Shown here one piece after another: positions 55,999-63,649 of a stretch of DNA of 64,000 bases. The stretch is from Burkholderiales bacterium (GTDB lineage Bacteria > Pseudomonadota > Gammaproteobacteria > Burkholderiales > WYBJ01): contig JALHQN010000011.1 of NCBI GenBank assembly GCA_022841915.1, forward strand, positions 1 through 64,000, in the 5' to 3' direction. The notes under the pieces are model-generated. The model worked only from the letters and a program-made list of their open reading frames with translations. It searched no databases and was not told where the DNA came from. The position numbers and the translations under genes were made by a program. Numbering within the stretch: position 1 is the first letter of the stretch; the number at the start of each line of letters is the position of its first letter.

Positions 55999-56044
55999 CC
56001 GTCGAGATCGACACACAGCATCCCACCATCCGAAGGAGACGACG

Positions 56045-57772
56045 ATGCGCTTCGAGTTCCATGACCCTTCAGGCACGCTGCAGGTTACGCAAGCGCACGC
56101 CGCCCGAGTCGACACGCTCACAGGCAAGCGCATCGGCTTCCTGAGCAACGAGCAGTGGCAGGCGCATCGTATGCTGCCGGCCCTCAAGGCGCTCATCGAG
56201 GAGGATTTTCCCGGCGTCGAGGTGTTGCCCATCGACACTTTTCCGCAGGGCAACTCCGAGATCCTGAAGGAATCGACCGCCGCTCGGGTCAAGGAACTGG
56301 AGGTCGACGCGGTCATCGTCGGCAATGCCTCTTGAGGCTCCTGCGCCACAGCATGCGGCCGTGCAGCCGCTAGGTTGGAAGCAGCAGGGATCCCGACGGT
56401 CACCCTGGGACGGGCCGATTTCGTCGGCGTGTTCAAGAACGCGGTGGCGGGCCTCGGGCTGGCACCCGCCGGCGCCCTCGTCACCTTTCCGATGCCGATT
56501 TTTCTGCCCGGCAGCGACATCGCCCCGGTACAAGCCCGCAAGCAGGAGTTCTACGACGGCCTGATGCGCTGGAAGCCCGATGCCGGCGCCGCACCGAGCG
56601 AACGCGGCCCGATGATCGGGCTCGAGGCCGAGAGCTACGAAGCGGCGCTGACGCGCTTCAATCAGCTCGCCATCACCAATCTCTGGGGCGACGGCCTGCC
56701 GCTCTGGCTGCCCACGCCGGAGCGGGTCGAGTGGATGCTGCGGGGCGCCACCGTCCCCGCTTCACACGTGCTGGGCAAGATGCCGCCGCGCGGCGCCGTG
56801 GTGACGGTCGAGGCGTGTGCCGCGGCCCTGGCGATGGCGGGCGGGCGGCCGGAATACCTGCCCGTGCTGCTCGCCGCCGTGGAAGCTTTCCTCGACCCGA
56901 GCATGAGCACCGATCAGCTGCAGGCGGCCTCGGGCAGCGCCTTTCCCGTCGTCATCGTCAACGGGCCGATACGCAAGCAGATTCGCCTCAACACCGGCTT
57001 CGGCTGCCTCGGCCCCGATCCGCAGCATCCCGCGGGCGCCAGCATAGGCCGGGCGCTGCGCCTGATGCAGCAGAACCTGGGCGGCGCGCTGCCGGGCACC
57101 GGCGCGATGGCCAATTACGGCGGCATGCGCTACACCAACGCCGTGTTCGGCGAGGACGAAGAAGGCTTGCCTTCCGGATGGCTGCCCCACGGCACCGACC
57201 GGCACGGCTTCGAGCCCGGCACGAACTCGATCTCGCTCGTGTTCGCAAGCGGCGCGGCCAACATCCGCCGCCGCAGCGCGAAGAAGGAAACCGCCGAGGA
57301 GGATGCGTTACAAGGCATGTACCGGATGGCGGACTACCTGCGCGCCCCGAATCTGCACTGCATTCCCGGCTACACCGACGGCACACCGGGCGTGCTCATG
57401 ATGCCGAACATCGTCGCGCAGCGCATGGCCGAACTGGGATGGACCCAGAAGAAGATTCGCGATTTCCTCTGGGAGCATTCCAAGATACCGATGGCATTGC
57501 TGAAGCGATCGGGTTCCGTATCCTGGATCGAAGTCGATGCCAATCCAGTCACGCAGGCGTCGCTCGGCCTTGACCCTTGGCCGATCAGCGCCAAGCCGGA
57601 GAACCTGATCCTCGTCACCGCAGGCGGCGGCCATCCGACCAATTCGTACTGGCTGCAAGGCTATTCGTTCGGCGTCGCGGGACGGCGCATCGATCTGCCT
57701 CCGGACTATGCTCGACTGCTCGCCGAAGCCGACCGCGACCTCGGGTGCGGGTCGGACGCTTGCGTGATCTAA
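56045..57772 (+). CDS. UGSC-family selenoprotein, in-frame TGA read as Sec97 (575 aa)
   Basis: One continuous reading frame with a single TGA at 56333-56335. The TGA sits in NAS-(U)-GSC-AT, the motif that names UGSC-family (seleno)proteins, whose function is unknown. Upstream are 96 residues (RIGFLSNEQWQAHRMLPALK, ELEVDAVIVGNAS); after GSC the frame runs on through AAGIPTVTLGRADFVGVFKN and a large domain with SAFPVVIVNGPIRKQIRLN and GFGCLGPDPQHPAG, ending CGSDACVI. Codon use is the same on both sides, and no start codon after the TGA has a ribosome site. GGAG precedes the ATG at 56045. A stem-loop with SECIS geometry follows the TGA. Standard gene finders would split this into 96-aa and 465-aa genes. 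No selA, selB or selD is in this window. Confidence 0.88.
56336..56378 (+). promoter_or_regulatory. Bacterial SECIS candidate after the UGA codon
   Basis: Immediately after the TGA, GCGGC (56355-56359) and GCCGC (56366-56370) form a 5-bp GC stem with the six-base loop CGTGCA starting 24 nt after the UGA. The loop has G as its second base. UGA-to-loop spacing and the early loop G fit bacterial SECIS elements bound by SelB. A weaker outer pairing (CCA 56346-56348 with TGG 56376-56378) can extend the stem. Confidence 0.7.
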
Positions 57773-58657: not shown

Positions 58658-60496
58658 CTAACCGCGAAATCCCGGCGTGTACTGCTCGCCTATTCCCGGC
58701 TTGCTGCGGCCCATGCTGGGCAGCTCCCAAATGCCCGCCCCGGCGGGATTGGTGTCGGCACCGATGTTGGCGTCGATGAGGAACGGTCGCCCGGTCGCGA
58801 TGGCTTCCTTGATGGCCTGATTGAGGTCGGCGGCCTTGTCCACGCGCACGCCGTCGATCCCTGCCGAGCGCGCCATCGCCGCGAAGTCCGGGTTGTAGGG
58901 CTCGCCGGTCACGGGATGGCGGAAATCGGTCGCCAGTTCCCGTCCGCCGAGGTAGCCGCGCTGCAGGCCCCGGATCGACGCATAGGCGTAGTTGTTCCAG
59001 ACCACCCATACCACCGGAATAGAATACTCGAAGGCCGTCCCCAGCACGCTGGCATGCATGAAGAAGGCACCGTCGCCGCATACCGACACGCAGGGACGAT
59101 CCGGCGCGGCGAGCTTCGCGCCCAGCACCCCGGCCACGCCGAAGCCCATCGGGCCGAATCCCATGGAGCCGATCAGCGAATCGGGCCGGCGCGGCTCGCA
59201 AAACTGCAGCAGCCAGTTGTGATGCACGCCGATATCGCTGACGAGGATGGCGTCTTCGGGCAGCGCCTGGTCGATCTCGTGCGCAGCGCGCTGCGGATGG
59301 ATCGGCGTGGTGTCGGCCTGGAAACCGGGCGCGATGAACTCGTTCCATTGCTTGCGATAGCCCTCGATCGCCTGCAGCCATGCGAGGCGCGCAGGCGGGA
59401 TCTGCACATTCGCCCGCCGCGCATCCAGTTCGCCCAGCACCTGGCGCAGGAACGTGCGTACGTCGGCCATCAGACCGAGCGCCACTGGGTAATTGCGGCC
59501 GATCTCCTCGGGATCGATGTCGACGTGTATGAGCTTCGTGGGCGGAATCGTGAACGAGTAACCCGGGATCCACGAACTCGACGTGCGGTCGTCGAAGCGC
59601 ACGCCCAGGGCCAGCAGCACATCGGCCTGGCGCGCAGCATGATTGGCCTGGTAGGCACCGTTGCGCGCGATCAAACCCAGCGCCAACGGATGGCGCGAGG
59701 GAATGGCACCCGCGCCGCTGGCCGACCAGGCCACGGGAATCTGCAGACGCTCGGCCAGACGCAACAATTCTTCGGTGGCCTTGCCGTAACGCACGCCTTG
59801 TCCGACCAGGATCACAGGCCGCTCAGCGGCGAGCAGCATCTCGACCGCCTTGGCTACACCTTCGGGATCCGCGCCGCAGCGCGAACTGATGTTGGCGTTC
59901 CATGCTTCGGGCAGCGGTGTGCCGTCGGTGCACGGCTCGGTGAAGATGTCGAACGGGACGTCGAGGACCACGGGGCCGGGTCGTCCCGTCGTCATCGTCT
60001 TCCAGGCAAGCCGGGTGGAGATGGCCACTTGTTCGGGTCGCGTGGGCTGATACACCCGCTTGCAGTACGCTCGCACGGTCGAGGGGAAATCCGCCTGATG
60101 GTGCCGATAGGTTTCTTGAAAGGCGCCGCGATTGAACTGCGTCGTCGGCACGTTGCCGGTCACGGCCAGAAACGGCACCGAATCGAAGAAGGCATTGGCG
60201 AGCGAGATCGGCAGATTGGCCGATCCGGGCCCGCACGAGGTGAACGTCGCGCAAGGCTGGCCGGAGACTCGGTAGTACACGTCGGCCATGAAACCCGCGA
60301 CCGACTCGTGGTGCACCGAGACCGTCTTGATGGCTTCGCCCCTGGAATACAGCGAGTCGATGAAACCGATGTTGCCGTGTCCGCACAGGCCGAAGACATA
60401 GGGCACGTTCTCTCGGATCAGGTAGTCGACGATGACATCGGCACCGGTTTGGTCTGCGGGTGCGGGTGCATGGGCGGAATCCAATACGCTGCTCAC
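58658..60496 (-). CDS. Thiamine-diphosphate enzyme, acetolactate-synthase-like
   Basis: A TPP-dependent enzyme of 612 residues from a GTG start with GAGGAG upstream. The activating Glu is in SVHHESVAGFMADVYYR, the ThDP motif is GDGAFFMHASVLGTA continuing to WNNYAYAS, and the FAD/nucleotide middle domain has LLALGVRFDDRTSS and IHVDIDPEEIGRNYP. These segments match the acetolactate synthase large-subunit-like family; no regulatory small subunit or ilvC is adjacent, so it may be catabolic. It is unlike the TPP enzyme at 20-22 kb in the finer sequence. Divergent from a peptidase E homologue across a 514-bp gap. Confidence 0.87.
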   Translation of the reverse strand: MSSVLDSAHAPAPADQTGADVIVDYLIRENVPYVFGLCGHGNIGFIDSLYSRGEAIKTVSVHHESVAGFMADVYYRVSGQPCATFTSCGPGSANLPISLANAFFDSVPFLAVTGNVPTTQFNRGAFQETYRHHQADFPSTVRAYCKRVYQPTRPEQVAISTRLAWKTMTTGRPGPVVLDVPFDIFTEPCTDGTPLPEAWNANISSRCGADPEGVAKAVEMLLAAERPVILVGQGVRYGKATEELLRLAERLQIPVAWSASGAGAIPSRHPLALGLIARNGAYQANHAARQADVLLALGVRFDDRTSSSWIPGYSFTIPPTKLIHVDIDPEEIGRNYPVALGLMADVRTFLRQVLGELDARRANVQIPPARLAWLQAIEGYRKQWNEFIAPGFQADTTPIHPQRAAHEIDQALPEDAILVSDIGVHHNWLLQFCEPRRPDSLIGSMGFGPMGFGVAGVLGAKLAAPDRPCVSVCGDGAFFMHASVLGTAFEYSIPVVWVVWNNYAYASIRGLQRGYLGGRELATDFRHPVTGEPYNPDFAAMARSAGIDGVRVDKAADLNQAIKEAIATGRPFLIDANIGADTNPAGAGIWELPSMGRSKPGIGEQYTPGFRG

Positions 60497-61010
60497 TGAG
60501 TTCTCCTCGTCGATGTCTGGCCGCGCTCGGACCAAGCGTGGCACTATGCCACGGATCCTGCGGGCTTTCCATCGAGCCATACCGTGCCGCGACTGTCTGC
60601 TCGAACAGAGGCGACCTGCGCAGCGGCCACCTGTCGGCAGACATCGGAGGACGGCGAGTTCGAGTCGGCGCGAATCCGCTGCGCTCGGGCAAGCCGGTTG
60701 CGTTGCGGCCGAACGCCGCAGTCGCGCACGTCCTGCAGCGAGCAGGCGTCCTCGATGCAATAGTCATAGCGCCGAGCTTCTTGCTCCGGCGCGTCAAGAA
60801 GGCGAACGATGCGTTATCATCGTTCGCACCGCCGCTGGCACGGCTTCGCTGCAGCGCCAACCAAACGAACCTCATGCTAAGAGCACACGCCCCCCGTCAC
60901 CGCCCAGGTCTTGCGCCTGTCGTCGAAACCCGCGCTCGCGTCTCTGCGCCGCGTTCGCCTGCACGGATACTCACCTGCACGCATCGAGCACACGCGCCCG
61001 GGAGCGCTGC
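60497..61010. other. 514-bp divergent intergenic region with a perfect 26-bp palindrome
   Basis: Separates the TPP enzyme (minus) from the peptidase E homologue (plus). No gene is convincing; open frames on both strands are Arg-rich. The palindrome at 60802-60827 is listed separately. Promoters for both flanking genes should be here. Confidence 0.4.
60802..60827. promoter_or_regulatory. Perfect 10-bp inverted repeat upstream of the peptidase E homologue
   Basis: GCGAACGATG (60802-60811) and CATCGTTCGC (60818-60827) are perfect complements around CGTTAT. The centre contains TTATCAT, a plausible -10 element, so the repeat could be an operator overlapping a promoter for the downstream peptidase gene, about 180 bp away. 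Confidence 0.4.
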
Positions 61011-61766
61011 ATGAAGCGCATCGTGGCCATTGGCGGCGGCGGCTTCATGATGGAGGATGGCCCCTCCCTGATCGACGAGTACGTCCTGGGGCTCGCACGC
61101 ACGGCCTGCCCGAAGGTCTGCTTCATTTCCACCGCGAGCGGAGACGCGCAAAAGCACCTGGACAAGTACTACACCGACTTCAGCCGCTTTCGCGTCGAAC
61201 TGTCGCACCTCGCGTTTTTTCGCAAGACACTGCCCGGCGCGATCCCATTCGACCGCATCGACGAACGCCTGCGCGAGCAGGACGTGATCTACGTCGGCGG
61301 GGGCATTACCCGCAGCATGCTCGCTGTCTGGCGCGAATGGGGCGTGCCCCAGGCGCTGCGCAACGCCCTCGCAGGCGGCACCGTGCTCGCGGGCGTGAGT
61401 GCGGGCGCGATCTGCTGGTTCGAGTGGGGCGCCTCGGATTCGGCGTCACCCGGCACCCGCAGCGGTGCGCTGCGCTGCCTGGGCTTTCTCAAGGGGAGCT
61501 GCTCCCCGCACTGGGGCGGCGAAGTCCATCGGCGGCGCGAGTTTCACGCGATGGTGCGCCGTGGCGACGTGCCTGCGGGCTACGGCATCTGCGACGGCGC
61601 CGCCGTCCTGTTCGAGGATGCACGCATCGCCGAAGTGGTGAGCAACGACCCGGCGGCAGGCGCCTATCGGGTCGAACTCCTCGGCGACCGCCTGCACGAG
61701 ACCCCGCTGCCGGTCCGGCATCTGGTTCGCTCCCAGGAGAGCGGCGCGCGCCGCAACACCCGATAG
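61011..61766 (+). CDS. Peptidase S51 (peptidase E-like / cyanophycinase fold)
   Basis: A class-I glutamine-amidotransferase-like serine peptidase, 251 residues. It starts KRIVAIGGGGFMMEDGPSL, has VCFISTASGDAQKHL, VIYVGGGITRSMLAVWREWG and the nucleophile in GVSAGAICWFEWGASD. The later GYGICDGAAVLFEDARIAEV is typical. Peptidase E cleaves Asp-X dipeptides; others of the fold cut cyanophycin. The ATG at 61011 is preceded by GGGAG. It runs ahead of the racemase-like gene (38-bp gap) on the same strand and may be cotranscribed with it. Confidence 0.88.
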   Translation: MKRIVAIGGGGFMMEDGPSLIDEYVLGLARTACPKVCFISTASGDAQKHLDKYYTDFSRFRVELSHLAFFRKTLPGAIPFDRIDERLREQDVIYVGGGITRSMLAVWREWGVPQALRNALAGGTVLAGVSAGAICWFEWGASDSASPGTRSGALRCLGFLKGSCSPHWGGEVHRRREFHAMVRRGDVPAGYGICDGAAVLFEDARIAEVVSNDPAAGAYRVELLGDRLHETPLPVRHLVRSQESGARRNTR

Positions 61767-61803
61767 CATTTCATTTCAGCGATTCCAACGAAGGAGCCGC
61801 CTC

Positions 61804-62640
61804 ATGGCGCTACGCATCTGGCATCAAAGTTTCACCGTTCTCGGCGACCTTCCGGCCTATGTCGACGCTCTGAAGGCGCGCATCGCCGAAGTCGTCACCC
61901 CCGGCACCGAAGTCGTGCTGCACGGACAAGTGCCGGGCACTTACACGTCCGAATATCCCGGCACCGACCTGGGCTTCAATTTCCTCTATCGTCTGCACGA
62001 GCTGCAATGGGCAGCAGCCGCGCGCGAAGCCGAGCGCCAAGGGTTCGATGCAATGGTGCTAGCAAGCATCCCTTCGCCCATGATCAGGGAACTGCGCACG
62101 CTGGTGAACATCCCCATCGTCGGCTACGGCGAAACGGCCTTCAACCTCGCCGGCCTGTATGGACGCAAGGTCGGCATGCTGTTCTTCAACATCAACCGGC
62201 ACGACTTCTGGCTGGAGCAGGTGCGTCAGTGGGGTGTGGCCGAGCGCTTCGCCGGCATCGCCGCCGCCGGGGTGACCTTCGACGACGTGGTCAGCGCCCA
62301 TGTGGATCCGAGCAAGCTGCAAGGCGTGGTCGAGCGCATCGTCGCCAATGGCGAGAAGCTCGCGCGTGAAGCGGGGGCCGACGTGATCGTGCCGGGCGAA
62401 ATGCCGATGAACCTGCTGCTTGCCAAGGCCGGCGTGCATCACATCGGCGGCGCCACGGTAATCGATGGTATCGCCACCTGTTTCAAGATGGCCGAAACGC
62501 TGGTGAGCCTCAAGCAGCTTGCCGGCATGACGCCTAGCCGGCGCGGCTATTTCCATGCGCCCCCCGATCCCGAGCGGGTCGACCAGGTGCTCAAGTTCTA
62601 CGGCTTGCAGGATCTGGGCAAGCGTATTCCGGAGGCGTGA
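61804..62640 (+). CDS. Asp/Glu-racemase-superfamily protein lacking both catalytic cysteines
   Basis: A 278-residue protein with the two-lobed racemase fold, most like hydantoin/allantoin racemases by layout. The two catalytic Cys sites are altered: the first lobe reads LASIPSPMIRELRTLVNIP (Ser where Cys should be) and the second VIVPGEMPMNLLLAKAG (Glu where GCAGM is usual). The rest (IVGYGETAFNLAGLYGRKVG, VIDGIATCFKMAETLVSL) follows the family. It is probably not a racemase and may be a lyase/isomerase or binding relative. AAGGAG precedes the ATG. It is followed at once by a Bug receptor, an apparent receptor-enzyme pair. Confidence 0.85.
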   Translation: MALRIWHQSFTVLGDLPAYVDALKARIAEVVTPGTEVVLHGQVPGTYTSEYPGTDLGFNFLYRLHELQWAAAAREAERQGFDAMVLASIPSPMIRELRTLVNIPIVGYGETAFNLAGLYGRKVGMLFFNINRHDFWLEQVRQWGVAERFAGIAAAGVTFDDVVSAHVDPSKLQGVVERIVANGEKLAREAGADVIVPGEMPMNLLLAKAGVHHIGGATVIDGIATCFKMAETLVSLKQLAGMTPSRRGYFHAPPDPERVDQVLKFYGLQDLGKRIPEA

Positions 62641-62641
62641 G

Positions 62642-63649
62642 ATGACCGGCCAACCCATCGTGCATCGGCACTTGGCATCCCGCATCGGCTGGCTGCGCGC
62701 CCTGCTCGCCGTAGCGGGGCTAACACTGCTCGGCGCGCAGGCCGTCTCGGCGCAGCATTACCCTTCGAGACCTCTACGCATGGTCGTGCCGTTCCCGGGC
62801 GGAGGTCCCGCGGATCAATTCGCCCGCATACTCGCTGATCGGCTGAGCCGCGGCCTCGGCCAACCGGTGGTCGTGCTGCCCAAGGAGGGCGCGGGCACGA
62901 TCATCGGCGTCGACTACGCGGCGAAGTCCTCGCCCGACGGCCATACGATCCTGCTGGCCACCGACTCGGTCGCCATCAATACCGCGAGCGGCCGCAAGCT
63001 GCCCTACGACCTCTTCCGCGACTTGGCGCCGGTGTCACTCGTTCTACGCAGCCGCCAGATTCTCATCGCCGGGCCGTCCTCCGGCTTCGCATCGGTGAAC
63101 GACCTGGTCGCAGCGGCCAAGGCGAATCCAGGCAAATTGACTTACGGCACGTCCGGCGTCGGCACGGCCGTCCATCTTTCCACCGAACGGTTCCGTGCTG
63201 TCGCAGGGATCACGCTCACGCACGTGCCCTTCAAGGGCGTGGCGCCGGCGATGACCGACCTGCTCGCCGGCCGCGTCGACATGATGATCCTCAGCCTGGG
63301 GTTTGCGGGACAGCATATCGCGAGCGGCAAGGTGCGCGCGCTTGCCCTCGCCGACGAGAAGCGCTACGAGCAGTTCCCCGAGGTGCCCACGTTCCGGGAG
63401 CGCAGGATCGACTTCATCTCGTTCGCCTGGTACGGCGTGCTCGTACCGAAAGGCACACCCGCCGGTATCGTCACCCGCCTGAGCGAGGAAATCGGCCAGG
63501 CACTGGCGGAGCCGGAACTGCGCAAGCGCATCGCAGCCACAGCCGCAGAACCGATGCCGCTCAGTCCGCAGCGGTTCGAGGCGTTTCTGCAGGACGACGT
63601 GAAGCGCTGGCGAGACGTGATCCGAGCCAATCAGGTTCAGTTCAATTGA
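62642..63649 (+). CDS. Bug-family TTT receptor, paired with a racemase-fold protein
   Basis: A TctC/Bug periplasmic binding protein of 335 residues. Signal peptide LRALLAVAGLTLLGAQAVSA; mature signature YPSRPLRMVVPFPGGGPADQ; VVVLPKEGAGTIIGVDYAAK; YGTSGVGTAVHLSTERFRAV; VPFKGVAPAMTDLLAGRVD. Its ATG lies one base after the stop of the racemase-like gene, and GGAGG from the end of that gene is the ribosome site, so the two are translationally linked. The ligand is not known; that pairing suggests a keto- or dicarboxylic acid. Confidence 0.92.
   Translation: MTGQPIVHRHLASRIGWLRALLAVAGLTLLGAQAVSAQHYPSRPLRMVVPFPGGGPADQFARILADRLSRGLGQPVVVLPKEGAGTIIGVDYAAKSSPDGHTILLATDSVAINTASGRKLPYDLFRDLAPVSLVLRSRQILIAGPSSGFASVNDLVAAAKANPGKLTYGTSGVGTAVHLSTERFRAVAGITLTHVPFKGVAPAMTDLLAGRVDMMILSLGFAGQHIASGKVRALALADEKRYEQFPEVPTFRERRIDFISFAWYGVLVPKGTPAGIVTRLSEEIGQALAEPELRKRIAATAAEPMPLSPQRFEAFLQDDVKRWRDVIRANQVQFN

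Follow-up and report, generated by a model that had tools for sequence, protein, structure and literature searches.

The split gene and its TGA codon

Positions 56045–57772 of the window (the whole 64,000-nucleotide stretch that was analysed, from a Burkholderiales bacterium) comprise, in frame 1, 96 codons, a single TGA (56333–56335), 478 further codons and a terminal TAA. The initial annotation described two open reading frames in the same frame, parted by exactly this one TGA, and proposed that they form one selenoprotein gene. Translation confirms the arrangement: reading through the TGA yields one long protein of 575 residues, ending at 57772, in which position 97 is the sole recoded codon and no second internal stop occurs. 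An AAGGAG is found 6 nt upstream of the ATG at 56045. The second piece had been said to have no ATG with a ribosome binding site and a TTG as its first start, and indeed the 40 nt preceding the TTG at 56375 contain no such site. The context of codon 97 reads VGNAS-TGA-GSCATACGR, which gives the motif U97-G-S-C100. The following features were assigned:

56033..56038, forward strand: AAGGAG, likely ribosome binding site (reading of the sequence)
56045..57772, forward strand: single gene that encodes 575 residues if the TGA is read through and ends in TAA (translation of the frame)
56060..56500, forward strand: UGSC domain, residues 6–152, PrdB-related by profile (PF24696, 77.9 bits; genome match; profile comparison with PrdB/GrdB)
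56333..56335, forward strand: TGA, very probably selenocysteine codon 97 (translation; kept in 32 of 32 close homologues)
56355..56370, forward strand: SECIS-like hairpin GCGGC-CGTGCA-GCCGC, 22–37 nt from the first base of the TGA (stem conservation 34 of 34; three stem-wobble codons invariant; folding-energy control negative)
56633..57739, forward strand: partner domain of an unnamed family (profile match; no Pfam or NCBIfam family; own model with pLDDT 89.7)

Scanning public genomes with the window gene returned 32 loci at 63–80% identity. The initial annotation had allowed for homologues that fail to align across the TGA and for a sequencing error behind the stop; all 32 align with a TGA at the corresponding codon, the matched stretch being otherwise free of stops, and the same TGA recurs in all 19 paralogues of the source genome. 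By their titles, these loci come mostly from Betaproteobacteria or Burkholderiales MAGs, with five from Rokuibacteriota MAGs; six public contigs carrying the gene at 63–65% identity (L028, L031, L033, L034, L036 and L047) are titled as ‘Bordetella parapertussis’ MAGs, and these titles look wrong. Homologues with Cys aligned at position 97, a check proposed at the outset, exist as well: Cys replaces Sec97 in four more distant relatives, from Halalkalicoccus, Halorientalis, Arthrobacter and Variovorax. Across 47 aligned UGSC domains, Sec or Cys at position 97 and Gly98 are invariant and Cys100 is present in at least 90%. From one comparison of family members six rows were set aside, four in which a second TGA is the terminal stop and two Cys forms. 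Variants were also seen, including two without the second Cys, C-G-T-S (L108:5811-6353) and U-G-S-S (L108:9572-10066), and a Vibrio europaeus protein (L132:7338-9023) that has neither Sec nor Cys in its M-G-T-S and still has the partner fused.

The source genome (6.21 Mb, 66 contigs, 96.1% complete) contains all four components that the initial annotation proposed to look for. One Rfam match to tRNA-Sec lies above its cut-off (75 bits against 47, anticodon TCA), nine others falling below; selA and selB adjoin this tRNA, and selD (424 bits, G000:C28:17953-18882) has one in-frame TGA of its own. Between selB and tRNA-Sec lies a Pyr_redox_2 disulfide reductase gene (L010:6583-7509), a candidate electron supplier. 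The conservation of the TGA and the complete selenocysteine machinery support the earlier reading of an intact gene in a genome that uses selenocysteine. To judge from the sequence, the locus is one intact gene with the appearance of two broken ones, and the UGA at codon 97 is very probably decoded as selenocysteine. The mis-annotation as two genes that had been predicted is present in public records of two genes in which the TGA is found: the Acidovorax sp. T1 record has a 96-residue ‘hypothetical protein’ that stops at the TGA, and that of Paracoccus ferrooxidans a 95-residue protein that does the same, followed by a second short protein.

Evidence for a SECIS element in the window gene is divided: synonymous-site conservation speaks for it and folding energy against. 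The stem of the 5-pair hairpin located 22–37 nt from the UGA is kept in all 34 sequences of the window’s clade. When 100 conserved degenerate codons were compared in 32 of these 34 (L040 was not entered and L088 was left out), only codons 30, 104, 105 and 108 were invariant, and the last three carry the three wobble positions of the stem (naive P 2.5e-5, for sequences that are related). Against this, the hairpin is not more stable than its synonymous controls (folding energy z +1.8, p 0.97; nearest paralogue z +2.1); among the 19 copies in the genome, the value is below zero in 15 and reaches p < 0.05 in eight. Searching Rfam gave no SECIS match above the gathering score and three matches at chance level. 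Over the UGSC family, 35 of 49 distinct contexts have the whole stem in one or another of three registers, compared with a mean of 2.2 and a maximum of 7 in 500 synonymous controls, the registers having been chosen from the same data and the sequences being related. Compensating stem arms occur across the family (GTCGTGGA/TCCACGAC, GTCGTGCA/TGCACGAC and GTCATGGA/TCCATGAC).

The UGSC family and its partner domain

By score, the window protein is a member of the UGSC family, as the initial annotation had proposed: residues 6–152 match Pfam PF24696 at 77.9 bits against a curated cut-off of 25. It lies outside the NCBIfam equivalog NF041046 because its match (E 1.4e-14, 54.3 bits) stays below the curated cut-off of 125. 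Passages on UGSC in the literature available still assign no function, in keeping with the earlier statement that the role of these proteins is unknown. The GOS survey had counted UGSC proteins, with 255 sequences, as one of its most frequent selenoprotein groups (PMC2398784, available in part).

In the source genome, the PF24696 search gave 19 matches, all above the cut-off and each with exactly one TGA. Above-cut-off copies number 19, 24, 16 and 24 in the four genomes of the GTDB family, which all belong to one genus; the same four genomes gave 86 matches, three of them below the cut-off; 82 of the remaining 83 carry a single TGA, and the last carries none. Twenty related genomes were reached via 20 of the 32 homologous loci (one, via L020, duplicates the coordinates of G201 of the genus), and these hold 2 to 35 UGSC matches each among the matches listed (down to E 0.001). 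Any UGSC match at all was found in only 3 of 200 sampled genomes of the phylum, source genome included. No report of multi-copy UGSC families was found in the accessible literature on UGSC selenoproteins, mostly without subscription papers.

All 19 UGSC units of the source genome have the partner domain, eight as a fusion and 11 as a separate gene; ten of the separate genes adjoin the UGSC gene and one is about 3.5 kb off. The three UGSC genes of the two other sampled genomes likewise have a partner gene alongside, and the partner profile, with up to 10 candidates scored in each genome, matches just these 3 of the 200. One partner gene of the source genome (L089:7949-9007; G000:C13:101949-103007) stands in a 16 kb locus without any UGSC match, and L096 has no partner domain in the flank examined. 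In two relatives, two consecutive partner matches stand behind a single UGSC gene (L109:2577-4630 and L110:1364-3417); alignment A3 omits L109:2577-3602 and L110:2398-3417. Outside the source genome the partner is not strictly obligate to UGSC, because a Haladaptatus locus (L131) has a partner gene with neither an annotated UGSC gene nor a UGSC-like motif in the 16.9 kb examined.

To judge by these searches and by its predicted structure, the partner domain belongs to no named family and has no clear known fold. When eight partner sequences were searched, NCBIfam returned nothing and Pfam a single match at the level of chance (E 0.2). Modelled alone, the domain reached pLDDT 89.7 and pTM 0.92. 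Foldseek found no PDB match for this model at E 0.001, the best being class I fumarases at E 6.8e-3, and VIA found none at Z 5, the best being Z 4.8, with fumarases at Z 4 to 4.4. A PDB sequence search returned nothing for the partner protein, while the alignment gave four matches at E 0.058–0.076, which we took as chance. Nine positions are invariant in 60 partner sequences (D, P, A, G, G, P, R, E and W), with no invariant Cys among them. In the 61 rows of the partner alignment, weak PF09338 matches occur in six (best E 0.041) and Asparaginase_C matches in 11 (best E 6.4e-4). An identification of the partner with PrdA/GrdE was considered and is unsupported, hhalign against PrdA giving 0.1% (E 0.53). 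As most partner sequences have no internal TGA, the domain provides an annotation handle on genes that are now cut in two.

Of the 38 flanking positions in the source genome, 11 hold a gene for a TctC-type carboxylate receptor (P about 2e-5, based on 386 TctC candidates, an assumed 5,900 genes and genes called by a simple script). Such genes are found less than 6.5 kb away at 14 of the genome’s own 19 loci and at 22 of the 32 homologous loci. TctC matches account for 20 of the 121 proteins in a neighbour set (the three genes called to either side at 20 loci, minus the long gene L077:10667-15754, plus two window genes, one of them a TctC). The association is only suggestive, because the source genome is itself rich in TctC, with at least 150 matches when the best 150 of 386 candidates were scored. 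No TctC gene directly adjoins the window gene; downstream of it, positions 58658–63649 of the window encode an acetolactate synthase-like TPP-dependent enzyme, an S51 peptidase, an Asp/Glu racemase-family protein and a TctC receptor. Elsewhere, trxB, trxA, partner and UGSC genes follow in series in Arthrobacter, and trxB, a TctC gene and an SDR gene stand directly ahead of the partner and UGSC genes in Variovorax. CoA transferase genes are present at three haloarchaeal loci, two of which also have CoA lyase genes. TrxB-like genes within 6.5 kb were seen at one of the 19 own loci, none of the 32 homologous loci and two of eight plasmid loci.

Kinship and fold of the selenocysteine domain

PrdB is the selenocysteine subunit of D-proline reductase. 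A 47-row UGSC profile compared by hhalign with an eight-row PrdB/GrdB profile scored 94.8% (E 5.5e-8 for one comparison), with Sec placed on Sec; the latter profile contains PrdB of Terrisporobacter, Enterococcus and Ligilactobacillus, two GrdB-family plasmid records and three genome proteins. Each of the three named PrdB proteins has one TGA, in U-G-T-C. As controls, the UGSC profile gave 1.0% (E 0.057) with two thioredoxins and 0.4% (E 0.16) with PrdA. BLASTP of the window protein against one PrdB gave E 3e-5, in an alignment that runs across the motif. The PF07355 (GRDB) model gave no hit to the window protein with an E limit of 0.001, and PF09338 had no above-cut-off match in the source genome, its sole match (E 0.234) falling inside a UGSC domain. 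On these comparisons of sequences and profiles, the UGSC domain is a distant homologue of PrdB, and by score it is not a member of PF07355. No report of a relation between UGSC and PrdB was found in the same literature, mostly without subscription papers. By itself the window gene adds one member to a known family; the expansion of the family, the unnamed partner and the link to PrdB go beyond that.

In the full-length model (pLDDT 90.0, pTM 0.92), the best 50 VIA matches listed for residues 26–180 are flavodoxin-, receiver- and Rossmann-like chains, a common arrangement, with Z between 8.2 and 10.2, rmsd between 2.8 and 3.7 and 106 to 149 residues aligned. The absence of thioredoxins from these best 50 matches listed excludes nothing. 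A thioredoxin fold was also considered, and the profile comparison with two thioredoxins (1.0%, E 0.057) does not support it.

A possible catalytic role

Together with the recoding and the domain pairing, the kinship with PrdB is best explained, in our view, by a thiol-linked, PrdB-like reductase that acts on small organic acids, a reading we regard as reasonably likely. These three features can be read from the sequences themselves, and from them we infer the following chemistry. The product would consist of a PrdB-like Sec domain, in which Sec-Gly-Ser-Cys begins a helix, and a partner domain that may bind and activate a small organic acid. The selenolate would attack the activated acid in a reductive step similar to that proposed for PrdB and GrdB. 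Cys100 would resolve the intermediate to form a selenenyl sulfide, which a thioredoxin-type system would then reduce. Classical pyruvoyl activation is absent and the role of the partner is a guess, because the partner is unlike PrdA and no PF09338 match exceeds the cut-off. Resolution by Cys100 would not be general, because UGSS, CGTS and the Vibrio MGTS members do without the second Cys. The 19 paralogues could then be enzymes of differing substrate range that draw on one electron supply, as described for GrdB-type proteins: several substrate-specific GrdB proteins feed one reductase system, and a GrdB-like protein has been proposed to cleave the C-F bond (PMC10838667, available in part). The trx genes ahead of the pair in Arthrobacter and Variovorax speak for the thiol link, and the TctC genes together with the haloarchaeal CoA transferase and CoA lyase genes for the link to organic acids. 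Against the reading stand the scarcity of TrxB-like genes near the loci, the lack of a TctC gene directly adjoining the window gene, the failure of PF07355 to match the window protein and the small PrdB/GrdB profile of eight sequences.

A more tentative extension, possible though we would not count on it, is that the family forms a second class of PrdB-type Sec reductase, a large betaproteobacterial catabolic family running on selenium, with 16 to 24 genes per genome in the genus and 35 matches among those listed in one relative, each paired with the partner domain; the pyruvoyl subunit would have been exchanged for another activating domain. If true, many organic acids would be opened to reductive attack, and one family alone would approach the largest whole bacterial selenogenomes, quoted as 39 to at least 46 genes over all families (PMC12013277, available in part). 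The kinship with PrdB and the fixed partner make a testable enzyme of what had been an ‘unknown redox protein’.

Several other explanations were weighed against such a reductase. One stop within an otherwise open frame could reflect a sequencing error, a recent nonsense mutation or a pseudogene, but this has next to no probability, since all 32 homologues and all 19 family members of the genome share the TGA at this codon, which for practical purposes rules it out, and the Sec machinery is complete. The efficiency of UGA decoding can depend on selenium, and the hairpin of the window gene is no more stable than its synonymous controls; both would suit programmed termination, in which translation mostly ends at the UGA, the short product has a function and the full-length protein is made only when selenium is supplied. 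We nevertheless consider this very improbable: the 96-residue piece would stop within the UGSC domain, ahead of Cys100, the frame is open past the TGA in all 32 homologues, and 11 of the 19 copies keep the TGA though they have no partner domain downstream of it.

The pair may instead not be a reductase at all, the partner being a lyase, a (de)hydratase or a hydrolase of organic acids and Sec serving as a nucleophile or metal ligand. The best, weak Foldseek matches of the partner, to class I fumarases (E 6.8e-3; Z 4 to 4.4), would fit such an enzyme, as would the Asp, Arg and Glu that are invariant in 60 partner sequences and the carboxylate receptor genes nearby. However, the Sec domain is akin to a reductase subunit, the partner has no invariant Cys for a cluster and Z values under 5 may mean nothing, which makes this unlikely in our judgement. 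Somewhat less likely still is a UGSC domain that is a thioredoxin-fold thiol oxidoreductase, acting in repair, antioxidant defence or disulfide exchange, with the second domain as an accessory or substrate protein. Its UxxC motif, the ‘likely Trx-like fold’ of the 2008 survey (PMC2398784, available in part) and the trxA and trxB genes that adjoin one partner–UGSC pair argue for it; the profile comparison, negative with two thioredoxins and positive with PrdB, and the flavodoxin-, receiver- and Rossmann-like chains that make up the best 50 model matches listed argue against. The 19 diverged copies, many of them near carboxylate receptor genes, would also fit catabolism better than redox defence.

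The reductase that we favour may be compared with several known systems. Like PrdB/GrdB-type proteins (PF07355), the UGSC domain has VDAV, followed by a TGA-encoded Sec, which in those proteins lies in U-G-T-C, and then a helix and E-x-x-GIPT; unlike them, it occurs in a genome without a PrdA/GrdE-type gene above the cut-off, and its partner is unlike PrdA. The source genome also encodes a PrdB/GrdB-family protein (L122:1396-2619; G000:C3:349683-350045) that ordinary annotation would break, with one TGA, in U-P-N-C, at the aligned place; it scores above the cut-off of PF07355, its only match, and has no UGSC motif. The fluoroacetate reductase FarB/FarE (PMC10838667, available in part) resembles the present case in that several GrdB-like selenoproteins with proposed differences in substrate occur in one genome, but comes from anaerobic Synergistota and has a GrdE-type subunit; it is likened here by description rather than by sequence. 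The UGSC/‘Unknown_1’ fusion mentioned in the 2008 survey (PMC2398784) is a fused form of UGSC, as is the window gene, Unknown_1 and the partner domain being likened by description only. With the UGSC family as defined by PF24696/NF041046, the window protein shares Sec-Gly-Ser-Cys and the PF24696 score; in size, the 19 copies of the source genome, and up to 35 among the matches listed in relatives, stand against the 33 UGSC selenoproteins, from 26 organisms, that a 2016 survey covering over 5,200 bacterial genomes recorded (PMC5029168, available in part). Nineteen copies of one Sec family in a single genome offer a natural system in which to ask why selenium is worth its cost.
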